Origin: Kiritimatiellales bacterium
GTDB lineage: Bacteria > Verrucomicrobiota > Kiritimatiellia > Kiritimatiellales > Pontiellaceae
Length of the DNA stretch: 35,690 nt
Assembly (NCBI GenBank): GCA_030595785.1
Contig: JAUVCG010000004.1
Span: 1-35,690, forward strand
Reading direction: 5' to 3'
A program made the translations under genes and the position numbers. The notes under the pieces are model-generated. The model did no database searches, was not told the origin of the DNA, and was given only the letters and a program-made list of their open reading frames with translations. Below are positions 3,626-24,560 of the stretch, one piece after another (position 1 is the first letter of the stretch; each line of letters opens with the position of its first letter).

Positions 3626-3639
3626 ATCCAAATATGAAC
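3626..3639 (-). promoter_or_regulatory. Putative operator GTTCATATTTGGAT (minus strand) upstream of DUF4861-kduI operon
   Basis: Plus strand reads atccaaatatgaac; 13/14 match to the motif at 6303 and 9402. Confidence 0.65.
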
Positions 3640-3708: not shown

Positions 3709-3722
3709 GTCCGAATATAAAC
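3709..3722 (-). promoter_or_regulatory. Putative operator GTTTATATTCGGAC (minus strand) immediately upstream of the IclR gene
   Basis: Plus strand gtccgaatataaac; 12/14 match to consensus; 12 bp upstream of the IclR ATG. Confidence 0.5.
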
Positions 3723-3734
3723 ATACTGGGTCCC

Positions 3735-4493
3735 ATGAAAGAATATCGAACTCCCAATCTCACCAAAGCCTGCCAGCTGCTTAACCACATCTCCGATACC
3801 CGTGGCGGATGCCCGCTCAAAGACCTCGCAATCCAGCTTGGAATCCCGCGCACCACGGCATTGCGCATCACGCAAACCCTGATGGATGTAGGTTACCTTG
3901 CCCAAAACGAGGACGGCGGATTCACCCTCGGGCCCGCGCTCGTGCAACTCGGAGTGAAAGCACTGGACAATCTTGATATCCGCGGCTTTGCCCGCCCGGT
4001 GCTCCGGGCGTTTTCCACCGACACCGGCGAATCGTCCCACCTTGCCATGCTCAACGGCACCAAGGCATTGCTGGTCGAAGTGGCCGATAGTCCCCACCCC
4101 ATTCGCATTGCGGCGCGCCCCGGCACACTGGTCGATCTGCACTGCTCCTCCACCGGCAAGGTACTTCTGGCGTTCAGCGTTCCCGAACCCCGGAAGTTTT
4201 GCAAAACCCTTGAACTGACCCCGCACACGAAAAACACCCATGCCTCGGTCGAAGCCGTGCTAGCAGGAATCGAGGAGACCCGGAAGAAAGGCTTTGCCAT
4301 CGACGAAGAGGAATATGTCCTCGGCGTACGCTGCATTGCGGTACCGGTCATGAATGCCTTTGGAAAACCCATCGCTGCCGTGGGGATCACCGCCTCCACC
4401 AGCACCTTCACCAAGGCCAAAATCAATCCTATGGCCAAGAAACTAAAAGCCGTTTCCGCGGAAATCTCCGCCAACATGGGGCTCAGCCACTAA
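3735..4493 (+). CDS. IclR family transcriptional regulator (KdgR-like by context)
   Basis: N-terminal wHTH (LTKACQLLNHISDTRGGCPLKDLAIQLGIPRTTALRITQTLMDVGYL) and IclR effector domain (LVDLHCSSTGKVLLAF...GFAIDEEEYVLGVRCIAVPV). Divergent from the DUF4861-kduI-sulfatase operon. Confidence 0.93.
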   Translation: MKEYRTPNLTKACQLLNHISDTRGGCPLKDLAIQLGIPRTTALRITQTLMDVGYLAQNEDGGFTLGPALVQLGVKALDNLDIRGFARPVLRAFSTDTGESSHLAMLNGTKALLVEVADSPHPIRIAARPGTLVDLHCSSTGKVLLAFSVPEPRKFCKTLELTPHTKNTHASVEAVLAGIEETRKKGFAIDEEEYVLGVRCIAVPVMNAFGKPIAAVGITASTSTFTKAKINPMAKKLKAVSAEISANMGLSH

Positions 4494-4528
4494 TCTATAA
4501 GAACCGTGCGTGTGCCTCCCCTCCCCCA

Positions 4529-4551
4529 GCGGCTCTAAGAGCCGCCACTAC
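4529..4551 (-). repeat. REP-like hairpin: GTAG-TG-GCGGCTC-TTA-GAGCCGC (minus strand)
   Basis: Perfect 7-bp stem, TTA loop, GTAG tetranucleotide at its 5' foot; related copies at 9178, 9341 and 15982. Confidence 0.7.
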
Positions 4552-4577
4552 ATGACCCGCAAAATGCAAGGAAGGTG

Positions 4578-6236
4578 ATGCCGTGCGACCGCCGGGGTTT
4601 CGTATCGCTCGGCAGGGTCAAGAAGCTATCGGCCCAGCGCGGTGGTGCTGAGCATCCTGTTCCACGCCGGACTCTTCCTGCTGGCCGGGGTGTTGGTGAT
4701 CTTCACAATCCTCCCGTCGCCACCGGTCGAGTTCGAGCCGCCCCCGCAGGTCAAGGTTCCCAAGATGCCGCTGAAAAAGCTGCAGGTAAAGATGAAGAAG
4801 CCGACCAAGCCCAAGGCAAGCGCGAAGATTACCGCCGTGGTCCCCAAGCTCGACCTGCATGACATCCAGTTTCCGGACCTGGCCTCTAGCGGCATAGGGG
4901 CGGGTCTGGGTACGGGCGGCGATGTGGTTGGCTTCGGCGGCTTTCGGGGAGTCCGAGGCGGAGGGGTATTGCTGGGCCGTGATCTACGAGGGGAAGATCG
5001 TCTATCCCGAAGACATCACCTTCCGCTTTTGGGGGGTGGGCGACAAGTTCAGCGCGGTCCAGGTGAACGGGGAGACGGTTCTGGTCTGTGCCTACAGGAG
5101 CTCGACCCGAGAACTGTTTTCCAACATCTGGCATTCCAACGATCCCAAGAATTGGGTCTATGTTTTTGCCGAACAACTTGCCCAGCCCAGCGACTGGATT
5201 ACGCTGAAGGCGGGAGAGCCGCAAGACATAAAAGTTTTGATGGCGGATGCGGAGGGCGGCCTCGTTACCCACATACTCAGCGTGGAGGTCAAGGGGGGGA
5301 ACCTATCCATGGACCCGCACCAATGGCGGGCCGACCTTCCCGATCTTCACCACCGACGAGATTTCCCGCGACAAGCTTGACCTCTTGTACTCCGGCATCT
5401 ACATCGGAGACATGAGCTTTACCAACGGCCCCGTTTTTTGCGACTTCGGGGGGGGGGCACGTCGGTAGCAAGCACTAACGACGTGGCCGCTGCCAAACCC
5501 CCGCCGACGGACGCCGTCGAGACACCGGAACCCGATCAAAAAATACGGGAGTGGACGGGGCTCACCGGGGAAACCCTGAAAGCCGAGTTCATCATAACCA
5601 TGGGCGATCAAGCCGTTTTCAAGACAGAAAACGGGAAGACCACGAAGATCCCGCTGACTCAACTCTCCAAGGAGGATCTTGAATACATCGACCTCGAAAG
5701 TCCGCTTAAACTATCCATCGACTTCCTCAAGAAAAGCACACAAATTCCGAATCCACCCCTCTCCCCCTTCCTGAACGGAGGCCAGCGCCCTTTGAAAAGG
5801 TTCAACTTTTCATTTGGCGCAAGGGTAAAACAGACCACGGCCCGGACCTACAGCCACAAACTTGCGATTGAATATTTTGCGGTGGGCAAGGAGGTGGACG
5901 GCAACCGCTATATCCTGCTGGAGCGGCATAAGGATTCATTCATTCATTCCCACCAAGGAGAACAAGAGATCGTTTGAATTCCGGGGGAAGCCGGTTCGGC
6001 TGCAACAAATGGCCCTGCGTTCCTCGGCTCCGATGAGAGGCACGGCATATGACGGCTATCTAATCACCATCACGGATGAACGCGGGGAGATCATAACGCA
6101 CAGGGCTTCGAGCAAATTCCTGTTTGAAAACATGGAGAACCTCAAGCAGCTTTCCCCCCGCAACTATTTCGATCGCGACTGCAAGCGCACCCTTCCCACG
6201 CCCATCACCGAAGCCGGCCGCTCACCGTACTTCTAA
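4578..6236 (+). pseudogene. Frameshifted gene: N-terminal TonB-like transmembrane/proline-lysine region, SHD1-like domain, conserved C-terminus
   Basis: Continuous protein similarity pattern moves through frames: SYRPSAVVLSILFHAGLFLLAGVLVIFTILPSPPVEFEPPPQVKVPK... / AFGESEAEGYCWAVIYEGKIVYPEDITFRFWG... / PIFTTDEISRDKLDLLYSGIYIGDMSFTNGPVFCDFGGG / TSVASTNDV...GETLKAEFIITMGDQAVFKTENGKTTKIPLTQLSKEDLEYIDLESP... / SFIPTKENKRSFEFRGKPVRLQQMALRSS...YF*. At least four frame changes. Confidence 0.75.
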
Positions 6237-6302: not shown

Positions 6303-6316
6303 GTTCATATTTGGAC
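6303..6316 (+). promoter_or_regulatory. Putative operator GTTCATATTTGGAC upstream of BNR_4 gene
   Basis: Identical 14-mer (plus following AGTTTT) at 9402; followed by a T-rich tract. Confidence 0.7.
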
Positions 6317-6449
6317 AGTTTTATTTTTTTAATTTTGGGTGCTTGCCCCCGCACTCGCGGAGGCATAGACAGGAACCGTGACCGCAAACCTTGTTTAATC
6401 CGAAGTGGATTGGGGAGGCAGGTAACCATGAAACCCTAAGGAGAAAGAA

Positions 6450-9217: not shown

Positions 9218-9353
9218 GCGGCTCGATTTCTCCGGCATGAATAGGTTGGATTTTGAAAGTAGAGCAAGCGTCCCGCTTGCCTGAACGAGCGGGACGCCCA
9301 TTCTACTTTATACCGAGAAGTTTTAGTCGATGGTATTAGAGAGCCGCCACTAC
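9218..9353 (-). repeat. REP-like element split in its loop by a nested ~116-bp insertion
   Basis: Left half cccccaGCGGCTC (to 9224) and right half GAGCCGCcaCTAC (9341-9353) match the intact copy at 4529; 9225-9340 lies between them. Confidence 0.6.
9257..9309 (+). repeat. MITE-like inverted-repeat unit AAAGTAGA...GCGTCCCGCT-loop-AGCGGGACGC...TCTACTTT
   Basis: 8-bp outer inverted repeat (9257-9264/9302-9309) and 10-bp perfect inner stem (9268-9277/9288-9297). Confidence 0.65.
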
Positions 9354-9401
9354 ATGCCCCAAAAACAACCCGCCTGAAGAGGGGGACATAAACTCCTGTT
9401 T

Positions 9402-9415
9402 GTTCATATTTGGAC
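9402..9415 (+). promoter_or_regulatory. Putative operator GTTCATATTTGGAC upstream of PEP-CTERM gene
   Basis: Identical 14-mer to 6303; followed by AGTTTTCGTTTTTCC T-rich tract. Confidence 0.7.
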
Positions 9416-9554
9416 AGTTTTCGTTTTTCCTATTTTTTTTTATGGTTCCCCTTCCGCTCTGGGTATACGACACACGTACGTAGGCGGCATCCGACTCGAT
9501 CAGAAAGATTGGGGGGGGGCGCCTAGAGTAGACACAACATAAGGAGAGTACCTC

Positions 9555-10256
9555 ATGATGAAGTATATAAATAAAGGGTTCCTATGCTTGGCGATTGCCG
9601 GGCTGGGGATTTCTGCAACGGCCGACGAATTTTTTGATTTTGAATCAGATAATGTCGGTTATTCTTACGGTGGCAGTGCAGTTGTCGTCGCTGGGGGAAG
9701 TGCCAGTGCGCAGTCGCTTGAGCTGCCTGCCACAAGCAACAGCTCCGGCTATGTGCCCTTGACGCCTATTGACCAGGCAGATGACTCAACAACCGTCCAA
9801 TTCGATGCGCAGTGGAGTGATTCCAATAATGGAGATTTTGGGATAGGATTATCCGAGGTTGCTACTATTAGCGAGTGGAATCAGTTCGGTCCTTATGTGG
9901 CAGGGACCACTGCTGGCGACCTACTTTATAGGGACGGCGGTAGTTCCCTTAAACTCACCACCCTCCCCGTTGACTTCAGTATACATGATTGGCACACCTT
10001 CAAAATGGTTTTGAGCCAAACCACTGAAACCTACGACCTGTTTATTGATGGAGTTCAGTATGCAACGGGCGCAGCATATCGCGATCAAGGAACCAATGAA
10101 GACCTTGTAACTTTAGGCATGAAGGGAAATAGTGACTCCACAACTGGTTTTGCCAGAGTAGATAACATTACTGTGATTCCTGAGCCGGCCACTCTGGGCA
10201 TGGTTGCCGCGTTTGGAGGGGGACTCCTCTTCATCCGCCGCCGCTTAATGATCTAG
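9555..10256 (+). CDS. PEP-CTERM sorting domain protein with LamG/jelly-roll-like domain
   Basis: Signal peptide; single domain; C-terminus VIPEPATLGMVAAFGGGLLFIRRRLMI is a canonical PEP-CTERM tripartite signal. Confidence 0.88.
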   Translation: MMKYINKGFLCLAIAGLGISATADEFFDFESDNVGYSYGGSAVVVAGGSASAQSLELPATSNSSGYVPLTPIDQADDSTTVQFDAQWSDSNNGDFGIGLSEVATISEWNQFGPYVAGTTAGDLLYRDGGSSLKLTTLPVDFSIHDWHTFKMVLSQTTETYDLFIDGVQYATGAAYRDQGTNEDLVTLGMKGNSDSTTGFARVDNITVIPEPATLGMVAAFGGGLLFIRRRLMI

Positions 10257-10282
10257 TATTTCGCGAATTGGAAATCTGATCG

Positions 10283-10315
10283 GGCCGGAATTGATTTTTC
10301 TTTTCCGGCCTTTTT
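10283..10315 (+). terminator. Rho-independent terminator after PEP-CTERM gene
   Basis: GGCCGGAA ... TTCCGGCC followed by TTTTT. Confidence 0.75.
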
Positions 10316-10422
10316 CGGCTAAAAGGTCGCCGGGGGCGAATGGATCCCGAATATCTGTTCACTGCAATCAGGAGCCCCTGCCTCACGGACTGGGTTCTGA
10401 ACATTTAGAAGGATTATTGAAG

Positions 10423-13311
10423 ATGAAAAAGTTATGCCTCATGAGTTTGCTAGGGCTGTTGGGCTCTATGGGTGTATTGCAACCCGTTTATGCGGAATGG
10501 GTGTTGCTGGATGATTTTAATTCGTATTTCGAGTCTTCTGACATCTCCACCGTTTCGGGGAGTGGATGGGTGACGCCGGATAAACCCTTCGCGGTGGTGC
10601 CAGCACCGGATAGCGATGGTGGATTCGGGCTACGCAATGCCGAAATGCCGGAAAGCTCAACGGCTGCCCGGAAGGATTTAATGCAAACGGTGAGTTCCGG
10701 CAAGGCTGCCCTGCGATTCAGGTTCCACACGTCGGACAAGGGGTGCGGAACCGCGATGGGTTTTTCGAATGGTGATGATAACGAGTACACCGCCTTCAAT
10801 GCGTATGCAAGTTTCAGCAGTTCCGGCGATTTTCTCGTTCGGGACGGAGCGAGCAATTATACGACCGATCAGAGCGACTCCGTGCTGGCAAACACGTGGT
10901 ACACGCTTTGGCTGGTTGCCGACAAGGGGAGCAATAGCTACGAAGCTTGGATTCAAGGCGGTGTTTTTTCAACACAGACACAACTTTCCCATTCAACAGG
11001 GGATTCCTCCTTTGCATTTCGCTCAACGGATAGCATCCAGGAGTTCCAGATGGTCAAGTCGACCACCGGGGTTGGGGAAGTCCTGATCATTGATGATATC
11101 TATGTGGACTACACGGGAGAATTAGCTCCAGAACCAGCAGGGCTGGTGGTTTATTTTTCCATAGAGGGGAGTTCAAACGTGACCGTCAATGCTACGGGAC
11201 TGTCCGGGTTGCTGGAATATACGCTGCAAAGCACATCGAGTTTGGTGTCTGGAACGTGGATGAATGTCGCCCCGCCGGTGTCTGGAGTGATTGAAGCCAA
11301 TTGGTCGACTCCTCTTGACGCCCCTGCAGGTTTTTTCCGTGTTGTTGGAGTCGAAGCCTGGATAGCCGATCTGGCTTTGTTTCAGGAGCAGTTTGTTGAC
11401 ATCCATGCAAATGATCCCCCCGAGAGCTCGACCGTGCAGGAATTTCTCGATACCCAACTGGCGAATGGAAGCTGGCTGGCCATTGATTATACCAGCACCG
11501 TGCCGGGAAACTGGCCAACGCGCGAGCATTTAGACCGGCTTGTCGCAATGGCAGTGGCCTATGTCAGCCCAGATTCATCTTTCTATCATGATGCAACGCT
11601 GAAAAACGGGATTCTTGTCGGATTGGAATTCTGGCTGGATAATGATTTTCGAAATAGCAACTGGTACAATGATCAGATTGGGGTGCCGGAGCGGATTGGC
11701 AAGGTAATGGTGCTGCTGGGGTCGGAGATGCCGGATTCATTGGTGGACCAAGCGATGGGAACGGTTTTCAGTAGTTCACGAACCTTTTTTGGCCTAACCG
11801 GTCAGAACAAGGTTTGGAAAGCGGGCGTTGAGCTGATGAAAGGCTGGCTGAACAGCGATGCCGGGCTAGTAGAGGAGGCCGCCACCGAAATTTGGTCGGA
11901 GTTGCTGGTCACAACCGGTGAGGGAATCCAACCGGATTGGAGCTTTTATCAGCACGGAGCCATGTTCCAGATCGGCAACTACGGCCTCTCCTTTGCAGAA
12001 AGCCAGAGCCTTTGGGTCGGCGCATTGAATGAGACCCTTTTTGAGGTTGATGAAACCCGGCTGGATATTCTGAGAAACTTCTTGCTGAACGGGTGTGCGT
12101 GGGTGCTTTGGAACGACATGTTTGACCTGAGTGCATGCGGGCGGCAGATTGACGAGGGGAATCAGGCCGGAAAAGGGGCGCGGCTTCGTAGCCTCTTGGC
12201 GAGAATGGAAACGGTGGATACCGCTTATCAAGCGGACTACGCAACCCGTCTTCAATGGCCGAACGAGCTGGTGGGGAGCAAGGTTTTCTGGCGCTCGGAT
12301 TTTACGATGCACCGCCGCACGAATTGGTATGCTTCGGTAAGAATGTGTTCCAACCGCATTGAGGGCGGTGAGGATACAAATGAGGAGAATATGCTGGGCC
12401 TACACCAATCCGATGGAGTTCTGCTGGTTCACCAGACCGGTCAGGAATATGCCGACATCGCCGGACTGTGGAACTGGCGCCGCCCACCGGGAACCACGGT
12501 GGATCAAGGCATTTCCAATCTGCGCCCCACGGATAGTGCCATGTTGGGCCGTACGGCGTTTGTCGGAGGTTTGGGCGATCATGATGCCGGGGTTTCCTCC
12601 ATGATGTATGAACGTAACTCACTGTCCGCCCGGAAGGCATGGTTTTTTGAGGAGAACGCGATCATCTGTCTCGGGGCGGGAATTGATGGAACGACCCTTT
12701 CCAACGTGTTTACCTCCATCGAACAATCGCTTCTGAACGGATCGGTCACTAGTTCGGTCGGATCGGTTTCAGTTGGAAAAACAGCGCTGCCGGCGGGAGC
12801 ATGGGTTCATCATGCCGACATCGGCTATCAATTGGAGCAGGCGGCAAGCGTGCAGGTTGAGACCGTTGTCGGAAACTGGGAAGACGTGTTTTACAATCTC
12901 GGAAACCGGCCCGTCACGGGAGAAGTATTTAGTGTCTGGATGGATCATGGCCAGTCACCGGGTCAACAAACCTACGCCTATACGGTCTATCCGCAGACCA
13001 GCGCGAGCGAGATGGCAAGCAGAATTCAGAACCACCAGACCACGATTCTCTCGAATACAACCGAATTGCAGGCCACGGAAGGAGCCCAAGGCGTTCATGC
13101 GGTCTTTTACTCCGCCGGACAGCTGTCCACAGGAGCCGGAAATGTGATTGAAGTTAGCGACCCCTGCATTCTTAGCTTGCGGTCGAATATCCTGCAGGTC
13201 TGCGATCCCACCCAAAGCCTAAACTCCATTACCGTGACGGTTGATGGGCAAGCAGCGTTGGTGGATCTCCCAACGGGGGGATACGCCGGAAAACAGGTGA
13301 TTGTACAATGA
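10423..13311 (+). CDS. Polysaccharide lyase family 8-like (hyaluronate/chondroitin/xanthan lyase superfamily) with N-terminal jelly-roll-like domain
   Basis: WYNDQIGVPERIGKVMVLLG, QPDWSFYQHGAMFQIGNYGLSFAESQSLW (His/Tyr catalytic region), MHRRTNWYASVRMCSNRIEGGEDTNEENMLGLHQSDGVLLVHQTGQEY...LWNWRRPPGTTVD typical of PL8. Signal peptide MKKLCLMSLLGLLGSMGVLQPVYA; true start near 10423 rather than 10291. Confidence 0.88.
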   Translation: MKKLCLMSLLGLLGSMGVLQPVYAEWVLLDDFNSYFESSDISTVSGSGWVTPDKPFAVVPAPDSDGGFGLRNAEMPESSTAARKDLMQTVSSGKAALRFRFHTSDKGCGTAMGFSNGDDNEYTAFNAYASFSSSGDFLVRDGASNYTTDQSDSVLANTWYTLWLVADKGSNSYEAWIQGGVFSTQTQLSHSTGDSSFAFRSTDSIQEFQMVKSTTGVGEVLIIDDIYVDYTGELAPEPAGLVVYFSIEGSSNVTVNATGLSGLLEYTLQSTSSLVSGTWMNVAPPVSGVIEANWSTPLDAPAGFFRVVGVEAWIADLALFQEQFVDIHANDPPESSTVQEFLDTQLANGSWLAIDYTSTVPGNWPTREHLDRLVAMAVAYVSPDSSFYHDATLKNGILVGLEFWLDNDFRNSNWYNDQIGVPERIGKVMVLLGSEMPDSLVDQAMGTVFSSSRTFFGLTGQNKVWKAGVELMKGWLNSDAGLVEEAATEIWSELLVTTGEGIQPDWSFYQHGAMFQIGNYGLSFAESQSLWVGALNETLFEVDETRLDILRNFLLNGCAWVLWNDMFDLSACGRQIDEGNQAGKGARLRSLLARMETVDTAYQADYATRLQWPNELVGSKVFWRSDFTMHRRTNWYASVRMCSNRIEGGEDTNEENMLGLHQSDGVLLVHQTGQEYADIAGLWNWRRPPGTTVDQGISNLRPTDSAMLGRTAFVGGLGDHDAGVSSMMYERNSLSARKAWFFEENAIICLGAGIDGTTLSNVFTSIEQSLLNGSVTSSVGSVSVGKTALPAGAWVHHADIGYQLEQAASVQVETVVGNWEDVFYNLGNRPVTGEVFSVWMDHGQSPGQQTYAYTVYPQTSASEMASRIQNHQTTILSNTTELQATEGAQGVHAVFYSAGQLSTGAGNVIEVSDPCILSLRSNILQVCDPTQSLNSITVTVDGQAALVDLPTGGYAGKQVIVQ

Positions 13312-13694
13312 AAATCGAACATCTTGCTTATCAGGTAGCTGATCCGGCAACCGTGGCCAACTGGTATGGGGAACAGCTTGGCTTTACCGTCAAACGGGCA
13401 TCTGATTCGCCGGTTCCAGTTCGCTTCCTAGCGGATGAAACAGGACAGGTGATGCTTGAGATTTACAACAATCCAACCGTCGAAACGCCAGACTACGCTT
13501 CGATGGATCCTCTTCTGCTCCACCTCGCCTTTGTCTGCGATGATGTGCCCGGAACGGTAGACCGGTTGGTGGGCGCGGGTGCCAGCAAGCTATCTGGGCC
13601 AGAGAAGCTCGATAGCGGAGACCAATTGGCCATGCTGCGCGACCCGTGGGGGTTGGCGATCCAGCTTTGTTGCCGTGCCCAGCCGATGGTGTGA
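13308..13694 (+). CDS. VOC (glyoxalase/bleomycin-resistance) superfamily protein
   Basis: MKIEHLAYQVADPATVANWYGEQLGFTVKRA...LHLAFVCDDVPGTVDRLVGAGAS...LRDPWGLAIQLC; ATGA overlap with PL8 gene. Confidence 0.88.
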   Translation: MKIEHLAYQVADPATVANWYGEQLGFTVKRASDSPVPVRFLADETGQVMLEIYNNPTVETPDYASMDPLLLHLAFVCDDVPGTVDRLVGAGASKLSGPEKLDSGDQLAMLRDPWGLAIQLCCRAQPMV

Positions 13695-13717
13695 TTCGCA
13701 TGGGGGATTCGCACATG

Positions 13718-13731
13718 GTTCATATGTGAAC
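13718..13731 (+). promoter_or_regulatory. Putative operator GTTCATATGTGAAC upstream of multidomain lectin-like gene
   Basis: Perfect GTTCA-N4-TGAAC inverted repeat; followed by GTTTTTTAAATTTTTT. Confidence 0.65.
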
Positions 13732-13938
13732 GTTTTTTAAATTTTTTAGATTATGTTTTTGTGTAACGCCTTTTTGTTAATGTACTCTGCTCCCATATCG
13801 GAAAAGGCATGTAGCCGGATGGGGAAATGCAAGGTTGCAAGCTGTAAAGTTCGGTGGAAACAAATGAGTTGGCTCCGGTGAAAACCCGAGCTGGAAAATC
13901 GTGGCACGCATGATGGTCATGCAACAAATAGGGGAAGT

Positions 13939-15864
13939 ATGATGAAAACAAGAGTAAAAGTATGTGCAGGGATTGCTTTGCTGCTTGGTGCAGTGATGAG
14001 TATTAACGCTCAAATCGTTACGAATGTGGTGGAGGAGTTTGATTTTGAATCAGATGCTCCCGGTACAAGTTACGGGGGCAATGCCGTCGTCGCTACTGGA
14101 GGAAGTGCCAGTGCGCAGTCGCTTGAGCTGCCTGCCACAAGCAACAGCTCCGGCTATGTGCCCTTGACGCCTATTGACCAGGCAGATGACTCAACAACCG
14201 TCCAATTCGATGCGCAGTGGAGTAGTTCCAATAATGGAGATATTGGGATAGGATTATCCGAGGTTGCTACTATTAGCGAGTGGAATCAGTTCGGTCCTTA
14301 TGTGGCAGGGACCACTGCTGGTGCCCTACTTCATAGGGACGGTGGTGCTTCCGTTCCGGTACCCAACCTCCCCGTTGGCTTCAGTATAAATGATTGGCAC
14401 ACCTTCAAAATGGTTTTGAGCCAAACCACTGAAACCTACGACCTGTTTATTGATGGAGTTCAGTATGCAACGGACGCAGCATATCGCGATCAAGGAACCA
14501 ATGAAGACCTTGTAACTTTAGGCATGAAGGGAAATAGTGCCTCCACAACTGGTTTTGCCAGAATAGACAACATTGTGGTCAAGGCCGCTTTTGACCTTTC
14601 GGAAAACCATCCTCCGGTGTTCTCGGAGAATCCAATCACCGGAACCAATGCCACAGAGGGTGTCGCCTACAGCGATACCATCGCAGGCTCCGCAATAGAT
14701 CCCAATGGCGATCAGGTGTACTACTATAAAGTGAGCGGACCGGATTGGTTGATTGTTGCAACCAATGGGGATCTATCCGGCACTCCTGATGTTGCGGGCG
14801 GCGGGGGTGTAATTGGATTTGGCGTGAGCGCATCCGACGGTTCGCTCTCAAACCAAGCGACGTTGAACATTGATGTCACCCTCGAAGATGGCGCAACCAT
14901 TTTCGAGGCCACAATCGATGATAACCTGCTCAATGCTGCAAACTGGAGTGAAGGCCTTCCCTCCGGCAACGCCAGAACAGAAGGTGTGATCGCCATCGAT
15001 GGCTCGTATACAGGCGTCACCCAACTCCATCCATGGATATCCGGAGCAACCGTTGTCGTCTCCAACAACGCTGTTTTAACCCTAGCCTACGACCTGTCGG
15101 TCAAGGATGCAACGATGATCGTCAACGATGCTACCCTCATCATTGCCGACGATATCTACATTGAAGGCGGTACGCTGATTTTCAATGCCGGCAGTGCGTC
15201 ATCCTGTACCGATGATCTTCGGGCAACCAAGTTTGGGGGAAAGATCATCATCAATGGCGGAACACATTCCTCGGGGCCTGATCCCGACCATAGTGTCGGC
15301 GCAAGCGCAACGTGTGGAATGGAGCTTCTTGGTGGCACCATAACAGCTGGTTCATTCAGCTTTGCAGCCGGATCGACCAATAGCGTTGGCGGTTCCGCGG
15401 TTCTGGCCAGCGCAGGTTCATCGACCACATTTGTCGACGCGGAGGGAGCGATTGACCTTGCTCCGGACTGGACCGGTTCATGGACTATTGGATCTTTTGT
15501 TGCCGGCGACTGGAAGACCATCGTGACCAACACCGCCAATGGCTTCACCTTGGAGGGCACAGCGATTGATGGGGCAAGCTTCGACGTTGGTTTTGCCGTT
15601 TCACCCGATGGAACGACCCTGACCAGAGTCTTCACCAAGATTCCTGCCGAACTTTCTATCGCACCGGTTTCCGGCGGCACAGAAATCGAGATTTCATGGT
15701 TTGGAGAGCCGTTGCTGGTCTATGAGGTGCAAACCAACTCCAATCTAATTATTTCAGAGGGTTGGCAGCCGTTTATGATCAATATTGATGGCGAAGGAGA
15801 AACCATCACCGTCACCAATATGATTGGACCAGACCAAACCTTCTACCGGGTCATTACGAAATAA
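13939..15864 (+). CDS. Secreted multidomain protein: jelly-roll/LamG-like domain, He_PIG/cadherin-like Ig domain, beta-helix-like repeats, C-terminal 'FYRV' domain
   Basis: Signal peptide; N-terminal domain nearly identical to 9555 protein; NHPPVFSENPITGTNATEGVAYSDTIAGSAIDPNGDQVYYYKVSGPDWL...GDLSGTPDVAG Ig-like; ends YEVQTNSNLIISEGWQPF...DQTFYRVITK. Confidence 0.85.
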   Translation: MMKTRVKVCAGIALLLGAVMSINAQIVTNVVEEFDFESDAPGTSYGGNAVVATGGSASAQSLELPATSNSSGYVPLTPIDQADDSTTVQFDAQWSSSNNGDIGIGLSEVATISEWNQFGPYVAGTTAGALLHRDGGASVPVPNLPVGFSINDWHTFKMVLSQTTETYDLFIDGVQYATDAAYRDQGTNEDLVTLGMKGNSASTTGFARIDNIVVKAAFDLSENHPPVFSENPITGTNATEGVAYSDTIAGSAIDPNGDQVYYYKVSGPDWLIVATNGDLSGTPDVAGGGGVIGFGVSASDGSLSNQATLNIDVTLEDGATIFEATIDDNLLNAANWSEGLPSGNARTEGVIAIDGSYTGVTQLHPWISGATVVVSNNAVLTLAYDLSVKDATMIVNDATLIIADDIYIEGGTLIFNAGSASSCTDDLRATKFGGKIIINGGTHSSGPDPDHSVGASATCGMELLGGTITAGSFSFAAGSTNSVGGSAVLASAGSSTTFVDAEGAIDLAPDWTGSWTIGSFVAGDWKTIVTNTANGFTLEGTAIDGASFDVGFAVSPDGTTLTRVFTKIPAELSIAPVSGGTEIEISWFGEPLLVYEVQTNSNLIISEGWQPFMINIDGEGETITVTNMIGPDQTFYRVITK

Positions 15865-15913: not shown

Positions 15914-15981
15914 TTCGTCTTGATTGGATATGATTAAGTGGCCGGCGTTCCTCAAGCCTCTTTGCTCGAGCCACCGCCAGT

Positions 15982-16002
15982 GGCTCTAAGAGCCGCCACT
16001 AC
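15982..16002 (-). repeat. REP-like hairpin: GTAG-TGGC-GGCTC-TTA-GAGCC (minus strand)
   Basis: ggctctaagagccgccactac identical over this span to the copy at 4531-4551. Confidence 0.65.
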
Positions 16003-16080
16003 ATGCCCCTCAAGAACGCAACAAAGATAACGCGGTCTTGGCCGCCCCACCCAACGCCCAAACCAAGAAAAATAGATATT

Positions 16081-16094
16081 ATCCATATCTGGAC
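16081..16094 (+). promoter_or_regulatory. Putative operator ATCCATATCTGGAC upstream of GH105 gene
   Basis: Inverted repeat TCCA-N4-TGGA; 11/14 match to GTTCATATTTGGAC; followed by GATTTTGTTTTTTTCG. Confidence 0.6.
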
Positions 16095-16246
16095 GATTTT
16101 GTTTTTTTCGATAATAAGGACTGGTAAACACCCGTGGGTTATCGTTTTGTGTCGGGTGATCGGGGGCATGCTCCTGCGGAGACGGGATCCGGAGCCCGAC
16201 CCCAAAAACCACAAGACCTCGTCACAACCAAACTCGGAGTGGAATT

Positions 16247-19085: not shown

Positions 19086-19685
19086 ATGACAGAAGCAGAT
19101 AAAAAAGTGATAGCGACAATCGTAAAGCACGGGGGGCTGGCCAGAACCCGCGACATACTCGCAAACGGAGTACATTCCGACACGCTTTACAGAATGCGAG
19201 ATGAAGGCAGTATTCTGTGCATCACACGCGGACTGTACCAGCTGCCCGGTGCCCAGCTAGACGACCCCGATCTTGAGACGGTACTTAAAAAAGCGCCTCA
19301 CGGGGTTGTCTGCCTTATATCCGCCCTATCACTGCACAACATTACAACGGAGATTCCACACGTAGTCAGCATTGCCCTGCAACGTGGAGCCGAAAAGCCG
19401 CGTATCGACTATCCCCCGGTTCAGTTTTTCTGGATGTCGGGGAATGCCTACAGCGAAGGCGTGGAAACCCATACGAAAGGCACAGCCTCCATCCCGGTCT
19501 ATTGCGTGGAAAAAACGCTGGCCGATTGCTTCAAGTATCGCAACAAGATCGGAATGGATGTTGCGCTTGAAGCCCTCAAGCTCTACCGGGAACGCTACCG
19601 CTTCAACGGAAACAAGCTTTCGCACTATGCGCGGGTCTGCCGGGTTTTCAACATCATGCGTCCCTATCTGGAGGCTTCGCTATGA
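19086..19685 (+). CDS. AbiEi-type antitoxin/transcriptional regulator (type IV TA)
   Basis: N-terminal wHTH (ATIVKHGGLARTRDILANGVHSDTLYRMRDEGSILCITRGLYQLP), C-terminal VYCVEKTLADCFKYRNKIGMDVALEALKLY; precedes AbiEii. Confidence 0.9.
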   Translation: MTEADKKVIATIVKHGGLARTRDILANGVHSDTLYRMRDEGSILCITRGLYQLPGAQLDDPDLETVLKKAPHGVVCLISALSLHNITTEIPHVVSIALQRGAEKPRIDYPPVQFFWMSGNAYSEGVETHTKGTASIPVYCVEKTLADCFKYRNKIGMDVALEALKLYRERYRFNGNKLSHYARVCRVFNIMRPYLEASL

Positions 19686-20593
19686 GTACCACTCCCCGAA
19701 ACATGGCCGCATCGGTCAAGGCACGGCTGCAAAATACAGCCCGCGAATCAGGCAAGGCTTTTGCGGAACTGCTCCAGCTCTATGTCATGGAACGATTCCT
19801 CTATCGCCTGTCTCAATCTGACTATGCCGACAAGTTCGTGCTCAAAGGCGCGCTGTTATTTGCTGCGTGGGAATCCGACTACCAACGGCGCACCACACTT
19901 GATATTGACCTGCTCGGATTCACCGACAACTCGCTGGAAGCTTTGGAAACGATTATCGGGGAGCTATGCGCAATTAACGTAGAGGATGATGGAATCCAGT
20001 TTGATCCCGAAAGCATACGACTCCAGCGGATCACGGAGGATGCCGACTATGAAGGGGTTCGTATCAAGTTTTTCGCCCGGCTCGAAAATAGCCGAGTACC
20101 CATGCAAATAGATATTGGATTCGGAGATGCTCTTGTCCCCGATGCCGTATCCGCATCCCTGCCATCCATCCTTGATTTCCCCGCCCCGAATCTTCGTTGC
20201 TATCACCATCTCACCGTCGTTTCCGAAAAATTCGAGGCCATGATAAAGCTTGGAAACCTCAATAGCCGGATGAAGGATTTCTACGATATATGGAATATTA
20301 TCCAGCACGAGGAAATAGACGGGAAACAACTGCAAGCCGCTTGCACCGCGACTTTCCAACATCGGGAAACACCATTGAACCTTGATGCCGACTTTTTCAG
20401 CAACGCGTTTTCCGAATCCCCGGAAAAGGAAATGCAATGGACGGCTTTTCTGCGGAAACAGAAACTAATGGAAACCGCTCCTTCCCGTTTCCAAGACGTT
20501 GTTTCCCAATTGCAGGCGTTCTTTCTACCGCTTGTCGAATCCCAGCTTGCGGAACAGGAACTTTCCATGCACTGGAAACAGGGATGGAAATAG
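19682..20593 (+). CDS. AbiEii-type nucleotidyltransferase toxin
   Basis: FVLKGALLFAAWESDYQRRTTLDIDLLGF NTase motif, EKFEAMIKLGNLNSRMKDFYDIW; ATGA overlap with AbiEi. Confidence 0.9.
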   Translation: MSTTPRNMAASVKARLQNTARESGKAFAELLQLYVMERFLYRLSQSDYADKFVLKGALLFAAWESDYQRRTTLDIDLLGFTDNSLEALETIIGELCAINVEDDGIQFDPESIRLQRITEDADYEGVRIKFFARLENSRVPMQIDIGFGDALVPDAVSASLPSILDFPAPNLRCYHHLTVVSEKFEAMIKLGNLNSRMKDFYDIWNIIQHEEIDGKQLQAACTATFQHRETPLNLDADFFSNAFSESPEKEMQWTAFLRKQKLMETAPSRFQDVVSQLQAFFLPLVESQLAEQELSMHWKQGWK

Positions 20594-21110: not shown

Positions 21111-21195
21111 TGGTGCCGGAGGTGGGACTCGAACCCACACAGATTTCTCCGCGGGATTTTGAATCCCGTGCGTCTACCGATTTCGCCACTCCGGC
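21111..21195 (-). tRNA. tRNA-Leu (anticodon CAA), 3' CCA encoded
   Basis: Minus strand GCCGGAGTGGCGAAATCGGTAGACGCACGGGATTCAAAATCCCGCGGAGAAATCTGTGTGGGTTCGAGTCCCACCTCCGGCACCA; acceptor, anticodon, long variable arm and T arm all fold. Confidence 0.95.
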
Positions 21196-22163: not shown

Positions 22164-24560
22164 ATGAGAAACATTGTATATATAACCGCTTTTGCCTCAC
22201 TTCTGCTTGGTGCACTCCCCTGTCATGCCCTCGATTTTACCGATCAGGGCGAATATCTGGGATCGTCCGACTGCCTGGCCTGCCATGAGCGCTTCTACGA
22301 ACTGTGGAGTAACTCGCACCACGGCAAGGCGATGGAGGCGTTCAGTGTATCGCTTGCTAAAACCCTCGAACCGATGAAGGAACCTCTCCAAATCGGCGAT
22401 GAAAAGTTTTTTGTCGAATTCGACGAAGGCGGCGGCATTCTCAAAGGGATCTCGGCATGCGGCGAGGAGAAAACATGGCGTCTGCGCCTCTCATTCGGCG
22501 GGCGCAACGTGCGCTATTTTCTGATTCCCATGGACAAGGGGAAACTGCAGGTGGCCCCCCTTGCCTACTATGTCCATCAGCGCGAATGGTACGACGCCAC
22601 TGGCAGCATGGTCCGCGACTTTCAGGACGAAGGCCCGCAGGACGAGGCATTGCACTGGACCGACAGGCAATTGACCTTCAACACCTCCTGCCACGACTGC
22701 CACGTCAGCCAGCTCGAAAAAAACTATAACCCCGAAGACGACAGCTACACGACTACCTGGAAAGAGGCTGGCATCAATTGCGAAACCTGCCATGGTCCCG
22801 CCGAGGCACACGTTAAGGCCGCTGAGGAGGCCTTAGCCAAGGGGGAGGAGCTGAAATCGGATGATTTGAAACTGCTCCGCTTCCATGAGGACCTCGACAT
22901 GGCGCAGCGCGACGCCACCTGCGGGCCCTGCCACGCAAAGGGCGTGATGCTCACGAGTGACTTCACCCCCGGCGAACTCTTTTTCAACCACTATGACCTT
23001 ACCTCATACGAAGACCGTGATTTCTGGCCCGACGGCCGTGACCTCGGCGAAAACTATACCCAGACCGGATGGATGGCCAATCCCTGCGCCAACTCCGGCC
23101 AGCTTGAGTGCATCCACTGCCACACATCGAGCGGCCGCTTCCGTTTCGCCGATGAGCCCAACAAGGCCTGCCTGCCCTGCCACCAGAAACGCGTAGACAA
23201 TATCCTTACGCACTCGCACCATGCCGCAAGCAACAATGTTGCCTGCATTGACTGCCACATGCCCACCACCGCCCAGGCCTTTATGTCACGGTCGGACCAC
23301 ACCTTCCGCCCACCCTCCCCGTCCGCCACACTCGAGTTTGGATCGCCCAACGCGTGTAACCTCTGCCATCACGACAAAGATGCCATCATGGGCGACTACA
23401 AAGGCCACCAGAAAGAGAACGTGGAATGGGCGGACAAACATGTGAAGGAATGGTTCGGCAAGGATTCCGGCATCACCATCATCGAACAGGGACGTATCGT
23501 GAAGGCCTGCCGCCAGAACGACTGGGACAAGCTACCCGAAATCCTGGCCTACCTCGACGATCCGAATTGCGATCCCGCTGCCGCCGTCGCCATCCTCCGC
23601 CTGCTTATCAACTGCCCCTACCCCGAAAAATGGCCCGCTATTCGCAAACAACTTGAAAACAAACATGAGTGGGTGCGGGCAACAGCGGCTTCCTCCCTTC
23701 AGTATGACAACACTCCGGAAGCCACCAAAGCGTTACTCAAAGCCGCTGCGGACAAATTCCGCACCGTGCGCATCCGAGCGGCCGGATCCCTGCTCACACG
23801 CAATCTGACCGGTTACTCCGAAGAGGAGCAAAAGGCGTACGAACAAGCCCATGCAGAATACTGGAACTCGCTCATCATCGGGCCTGACCGTTGGTCGACT
23901 CACTACAATCAGGGCGTCTATTACGACCGCATCGGCGAAGCGGAGAAGTCGCTGGCGGCGTACGAGAAGTCGCTAACGCTGCGCGACGATGTGATTCAGC
24001 CCATGATCAATGCCTCGATGGTGTATGCACGCTCCGGCGATAGCACCAACGCCTATGCGTTGCTGCAGAAGGCGTTCAAGATCGAACCCGAAAACCCGAT
24101 GGTTAATTTCAATCTGGCCTTGATGGAGGCCGAGTTCAAGAACCTGGAGGCCGCCGAAAAGCACCTCCGCACCACTCTCGAATTTGATCCTCAGATGGCA
24201 CAAGCCGCCTACAACCTGGGTGTGCTGCTCCTCCAGAAAGACAACAACGAGGGTTTCCAGTGGTTGCACACCGCGGCAAGGCTTGTTCCTGAAAACTGGA
24301 ACTACCTCTCGGCATACATCTATTTTCTCAGTCAGGCCAACCGGACGGCAGAGATTGAAGCCGCACTCAAGGAAGCCGTTGCGAGCGGGCGTGCCGCACC
24401 CGAGGCCTACTTCGCCCTCATCGCCAACTACCAGCGCGAAAGCCGCATTGCCGAGGCCATCGAAATCTGCAAAAAAGCCAAGCTCAACAAAAACCTGCCC
24501 ATGGACGCCAAGCGCCATGCCGCCCAAATGGAGCAACGTTTGCGCGACGGAGGTATGTAA
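22164..24560 (+). CDS. Octaheme c-type cytochrome with HEAT-like and TPR repeats
   Basis: Signal peptide; eight CxxCH motifs (CLACH, CHDCH, CETCH, CGPCH, CIHCH, CLPCH, CIDCH, CNLCH) followed by TPR repeats (YYDRIGEAEKSLAAYEKSLTL... etc.). Confidence 0.93.
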   Translation: MRNIVYITAFASLLLGALPCHALDFTDQGEYLGSSDCLACHERFYELWSNSHHGKAMEAFSVSLAKTLEPMKEPLQIGDEKFFVEFDEGGGILKGISACGEEKTWRLRLSFGGRNVRYFLIPMDKGKLQVAPLAYYVHQREWYDATGSMVRDFQDEGPQDEALHWTDRQLTFNTSCHDCHVSQLEKNYNPEDDSYTTTWKEAGINCETCHGPAEAHVKAAEEALAKGEELKSDDLKLLRFHEDLDMAQRDATCGPCHAKGVMLTSDFTPGELFFNHYDLTSYEDRDFWPDGRDLGENYTQTGWMANPCANSGQLECIHCHTSSGRFRFADEPNKACLPCHQKRVDNILTHSHHAASNNVACIDCHMPTTAQAFMSRSDHTFRPPSPSATLEFGSPNACNLCHHDKDAIMGDYKGHQKENVEWADKHVKEWFGKDSGITIIEQGRIVKACRQNDWDKLPEILAYLDDPNCDPAAAVAILRLLINCPYPEKWPAIRKQLENKHEWVRATAASSLQYDNTPEATKALLKAAADKFRTVRIRAAGSLLTRNLTGYSEEEQKAYEQAHAEYWNSLIIGPDRWSTHYNQGVYYDRIGEAEKSLAAYEKSLTLRDDVIQPMINASMVYARSGDSTNAYALLQKAFKIEPENPMVNFNLALMEAEFKNLEAAEKHLRTTLEFDPQMAQAAYNLGVLLLQKDNNEGFQWLHTAARLVPENWNYLSAYIYFLSQANRTAEIEAALKEAVASGRAAPEAYFALIANYQRESRIAEAIEICKKAKLNKNLPMDAKRHAAQMEQRLRDGGM

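Follow-up and report, generated by a model that had tools for sequence, protein, structure and literature searches.

Two genes of a polysaccharide-degradation locus in a Kiritimatiellales bacterium carry the same jelly-roll domain, and the two copies form a mosaic of near-identical and diverged segments. We interpret them, with a probability of roughly 0.6, as older paralogous domains that were partly homogenised by recent gene conversion, the domain itself likely being a non-catalytic carbohydrate-binding module common to both genes (A and B) and to the polysaccharide lyase family 8 (PL8) gene that lies between them. The mosaic is read directly from the alignment, and conversion is the process that we infer from it. 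The case is a fairly ordinary one: it adds an example of paralogue conversion, itself a known process, in an uncharacterised domain of a known fold. It matters because a recombination mosaic can mimic diversifying selection at the level of a loop, and the contrast at silent sites tells the two apart. The window analysed here is the whole stretch of 35,690 nt at the start of contig JAUVCG010000004.1; it belongs to a MAG of 137 contigs and 1.78 Mb that is about 59% complete, which bounds every whole-assembly count given below.

A domain shared by two genes of different architecture

Gene A (9555–10256, forward strand) is an ORF of 233 aa with a signal peptide, the jelly-roll domain, and a PEP-CTERM-like sorting tail. 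Gene B (13939–15864, forward strand) encodes 641 aa, in which a signal peptide and the same jelly-roll domain are followed by an Ig-like Big_9 domain and a beta-rich tail. The two domain copies (9696–10169 in A and 14101–14574 in B, both on the forward strand) form a gap-free alignment of 474 bp at an offset of 4405, exactly where the initial annotation had placed them. They are 95.1% identical, far beyond chance (BLAST E 3.5e-229), with 23 nucleotide differences across 18 codons. Exact alignment bore out the earlier manual count of 15 codons with replacements and three with silent changes, and the clustering of changes described at the time is present as well. The homology is in fact longer than had been noticed: it extends ungapped in the 5′ direction to 9633 (9633–9695 against 14038–14100, where 17 of the 63 bp differ), and at the other end divergence resumes at 10158 and homology stops near 10178.

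A search for extra copies, as the initial annotation had suggested, left A and B as the sole DNA copies in the assembly. Within the organism's own genome the domain was found only in A, B, and, as a distant version, the PL8 gene, the remaining matches mainly covering the PEP-CTERM tail; viral contigs gave no match. Orthologues of either gene's domain were absent from 29 genomes of the family, and 388 genomes of the phylum yielded only distant matches. We found no close homologue of the A/B domain outside; the nearest, and the only relative spanning the whole domain, comes from an Anaerohalosphaeraceae MAG (L033) and is 45% identical. There too the domain stands at the N-terminus of a multidomain protein (encoded at L033:3788–5836), ahead of Ig-like and LamG domains, and the protein closes in a dockerin-like stretch.

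Parts of both genes recur elsewhere. The C-terminal tail of gene A is VIPEPATLGMVAAFGGGLLFIRRRLMI, and dozens of same-genus proteins end in the same way, which likens gene A to the PEP-CTERM/exosortase-sorted proteins of Pontiella-type bacteria; gene A differs in scoring slightly under the curated cut-offs (14.6 against 20.7 for Pfam, 15.9 against 16 for TIGR02595), and gene B differs in having no such tail. The tail of gene B occurs in other genomes attached to other N-termini. Within the genus, its Ig and tail region is found on other N-terminal parts, and the repeat-like middle part of this region also exists as a stand-alone PEP-CTERM protein. Because the Ig and tail region of gene B is not tied to one N-terminus within the genus, we regard the domain as modular, and such free swapping of parts indicates that the A/B pair arose among domain-shuffling proteins.

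A mosaic of near-identical and diverged segments

All segments of the pair lie on the forward strand and are given here in gene A, with copy B in brackets. The homology opens with 18 identical bp at 9633–9650 (14038–14055), followed by a first diverged patch at 9651–9695 (14056–14100), where 17 of 45 positions differ. The near-identical tract T1 then covers 9696–9914 (14101–14319; 3 of 219 positions differ, none silently). A diverged island at 9915–9986 (14320–14391), which corresponds to a predicted hairpin and loop of the domain, differs at 16 of 72 positions and separates T1 from a second near-identical tract, T2, at 9987–10157 (14392–14562; 2 of 171 positions differ, none silently). Divergence resumes over 10158–10178 (14563–14583; 8 of 21 positions differ), where the homology ends.

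The differences are strongly clumped, 16 of the 23 falling inside the 72-bp island 9915–9986 (permutation, P = 5e-5). Third codon positions tell the same story: they differ in 0 of 130 codons in the tracts versus four of 24 in the island (P = 5e-4), and in six of 15 codons in the first patch, which carries a TCT/AGT serine switch, and three of six at the 3′ end. Of the island's four third-position changes, two fall in codons that differ at more than one position. The five changes in T1 and T2 are all replacements with none silent, a skew that is not significant. A two-state segmentation (HMM) beats a single rate (BIC 282 vs 322), with states of 0.32 (diverged) and 0.015 (conserved); it places its own island boundaries at 9917–9961, and the diverged patches that it delimits are similar in total divergence (31%–38%). 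The initial annotation had proposed duplication or gene conversion, and the better fit of a two-state mosaic supports that proposal: the pair displays the alternation of near-identical and diverged segments, with a contrast at silent sites, that is the hallmark of a conversion mosaic between paralogues.

In the scenario that we favour, genes A and B would have started with two older paralogous copies of a ConA/LamG-type jelly roll, separated by 4.4 kb within the same polysaccharide-degradation locus. RecA-type recombination between these direct repeats would have led to recent gene conversion, with most of one domain overwritten by the other, in either direction, over at least two tracts (9696–9914 and 9987–10157). 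Whatever the tracts left untouched, the 72-bp hairpin and loop island included, would retain the older divergence. This reading is carried by only 23 differences, and the island counts against it in one respect, as its survival within a converted region requires two tracts or patchy mismatch repair. There is a precedent in neighbouring PE_PGRS paralogues, between which a block of clustered SNPs was moved by gene conversion (PMC1762029). PE_PGRS17 and PE_PGRS18 of M. tuberculosis resemble our pair in showing a block of clustered differences between adjacent, otherwise near-identical paralogues, with conversion acting patchwise (PMC1762029); the process was shown there by many strains (PMC1762029), whereas here we have one genome. 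Our pair also differs in that a single domain is shared by proteins of two architectures, and in that its diverged patches would have been left in place, not transferred.

The sharp ends of the mosaic would also suit whole-domain copying followed by a short conversion of the island from a third, unseen paralogue, and such a donor could be sought in a genome that is about 59% assembled and of a kind rich in PEP-CTERM proteins. Yet neither the window nor the fetched loci hold a donor for the island or for the first patch, and the assembly has no further DNA copy, which makes a third paralogue a distinctly improbable source. Local hypermutation of the island, whether by template switching, error-prone repair, or a diversity-generating retroelement, would fit so dense a cluster, its three-base run (AAA/CCG), and the predominance of transversions (10 of 16). 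We consider it very unlikely nonetheless: the assembly (about 59% complete) contains no reverse transcriptase and no third template copy, no inverted source longer than 9 nt lies nearby, and several of the changed positions have no adenine in either copy. A search for template-switch sources or donors of the island and the first patch returned matches of chance length only. The retroelement-target variant was also rejected as a candidate in its own right, with no RVT_1 in the assembly (about 59% complete), no template repeat, and changes that are not adenine-specific. Finally, a MAG of 137 contigs at about 59% completeness invites the suspicion that reads of both copies were mixed in assembly, the more so as a nearby gene (4642–6236) looks frameshifted. 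We give this artefact scarcely any credence, since the copies share a contig yet have different flanks, and since a misjoin might exchange islands between them but does not generate long silent-site identity.

Substitution pattern and comparison with an outside homologue

The initial annotation had read the excess of replacements as diversifying selection. On that account, which we judge unlikely, the domain was simply duplicated or shuffled in the recent past, and one ligand-contacting loop then changed rapidly under adaptation. The account draws on the 15 replacement versus three silent codons, on a maximum-likelihood dN/dS of about 2, and on charge and proline swaps among the changes in the hairpin and loop of the model. 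Codon counting exaggerates the case for selection, however, since even random change produces replacements about three quarters of the time. For the 474-bp pair, NG86 gives dN 0.051, dS 0.048, and a ratio of 1.07 with a codon bootstrap of 0.46–3.48, compatible with neutrality, and YN00 gives about 1.4; the three diverged patches pooled have a dN/dS of about 0.7. Equally few silent changes arose in 41% (path count) or 18% (codon count) of neutral simulations. A dN/dS significantly above 1 was thus sought for the A/B pair and found neither by the NG86 bootstrap nor by the neutral simulation, the values above 1 not rising beyond noise. Taken together, the range of dN/dS and the simulation provide no evidence of positive selection, leaving diversifying selection unsupported, and there is little sign of strong purifying selection either.

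The distribution of silent changes also speaks against an adaptive loop. They are concentrated in the same island, a pattern that selection acting only on amino acids would not yield, and since silent and replacement changes climb together, differing ages of the segments fit better than selection on the loop. A second, silent-rich patch (9651–9695, the one with the serine switch) lies outside the loop altogether. Against the distant L033 homologue, identity is 41% in the island, 44% in T1, and 55% in T2, whereas A and B are 58% identical to each other in the island and 97% in the tracts. The island is therefore about as conserved as T1 with respect to L033 and is neither unusually variable nor a generally fast loop; the contrast between the two comparisons again favours segments of differing age. 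We conclude that the excess of replacements is what an older, weakly constrained pair of paralogues shows in those patches and no proof of positive selection. Where L033 agrees with one copy in the island, it sides with A at S108, T113, T114, and D118 and with B at V110. Copy B may thus carry more of the derived states there, as judged from a distant outgroup that does not by itself fix the direction of conversion.

Predicted fold and putative sugar binding

Models of the A and B domains, built from a four-sequence alignment, have a confidence that is low to medium (mean pLDDT of 63 for A and 58 for B). They predict an all-beta jelly roll in which the island (residues 99–122) would form a short hairpin, with strands near 101–105 and 108–111, and a loop before strand 125–132. 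The variable residues are placed by the model mainly in this hairpin and loop, and a role of the loop is possible.

A Foldseek comparison with the PDB placed the low-to-medium-confidence model of mean pLDDT 63 in the fold of the ConA-like jelly-roll superfamily (probability 1.00, best E 1e-5, TM-scores of about 0.4–0.6). The top matches were ConA-like lectins and glycan-active enzymes, among them calreticulin, the sialidase BT_1020, GH16, alginate lyases, and galectins. Neither domain matched a curated LamG/ConA-like sequence family in Pfam or NCBIfam, and a sequence search of solved structures in the PDB gave no match. We take the domain to be a divergent concanavalin/LamG-type jelly roll. 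It resembles the ConA-like lectin/glucanase superfamily (LamG/Laminin_G_3 and the sialidase-like CBM PF22585) in its modelled jelly roll, in its fold matches to BT_1020, GH16, and galectins, and in having related domains on polysaccharide enzymes; it differs in lacking a Pfam match of its own and in TM-scores of about 0.4–0.6. Its distant relatives sit N-terminally on pectate-lyase-like proteins, one of them with a weak Sialidase-like_CBM match. Because of the fold matches and of relatives on pectate-lyase-like proteins and at the N-terminus of the PL8 lyase, a carbohydrate-binding role is likely, and the A/B domain would be a putative non-catalytic carbohydrate-binding module.

The polysaccharide locus and its upstream motif

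The PL8 gene between A and B (10423–13311, forward strand) is identified by Lyase_8 (E 4e-66) and Lyase_8_N (E 1e-30). At its N-terminus (10477–11130, forward strand) it carries the third, distant copy of the domain, which the initial annotation had missed; this copy is 24%–25% identical, with the match itself at 10633–10980 (E 7e-5). Around these genes the locus contains a sulfatase, a KduI-type isomerase, a DUF4861 protein, an IclR regulator, a BNR_4 protein, a glyoxalase-like protein, and a GH88 unsaturated glucuronyl hydrolase. This content fits the breakdown of a sulfated, uronic-acid-containing polysaccharide, with chondroitin sulfate as a presumptive example of the substrate. The domain would tie the surface-sorted A, the modular secreted B, and the PL8 lyase with its distant copy to the same uronic-acid polysaccharide. 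Through this jelly-roll domain, which has no name, three genes of the degradation locus are connected, and they offer concrete candidates for tests of glycan binding in polysaccharide degraders of the Pontiella type.

Genes A and B are further joined by an operator-like motif, the palindromic TTCATATNTGRAC-NN-TTTT, at 9403–9421 upstream of A and 13719–13737 upstream of B. It has four matches in the whole assembly, all at this locus and on the forward strand, against none for a control pattern; the other two lie upstream of the BNR_4 gene (6304–6322) and the GH88 gene (16082–16100). Weaker sites on the reverse strand (3626–3638 and 3709–3721) lie beside the IclR regulator gene (3735–4493). The motif is likely the operator of an IclR regulon, and sharing it makes A and B probably co-regulated. 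Segmental conversion could conceivably serve as a slow cassette system, in which the scaffold is kept uniform and the ligand loop exchanged among co-regulated surface proteins. We hold this to be highly improbable; if true, it would mean that glycan recognition is tuned among the co-regulated surface proteins of a polysaccharide locus.

Several other features of the window were noted. A hairpin-plus-tail repeat, GGCTCTAAGAGCCGCCACTACATG, lies past the stop codons of three genes (4520–4562, 9322–9364, and 15971–16013); these are its only copies in the assembly, two same-genus genomes have a single copy each, and it is REP-like or terminator-like. An SHD1-domain gene (4642–6236) appears split across frames into ORFs at 4642–5415, 4922–5380, 5438–5977, and 5862–6236, apparently as a frameshifted pseudogene or through sequence errors. 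Farther downstream, an AbiEi/AbiEii type IV toxin–antitoxin pair (19086–20593) lies near a tRNA-Leu gene (21111–21195), and a multihaem cytochrome with HEAT and TPR repeats is encoded at 22164–24560.
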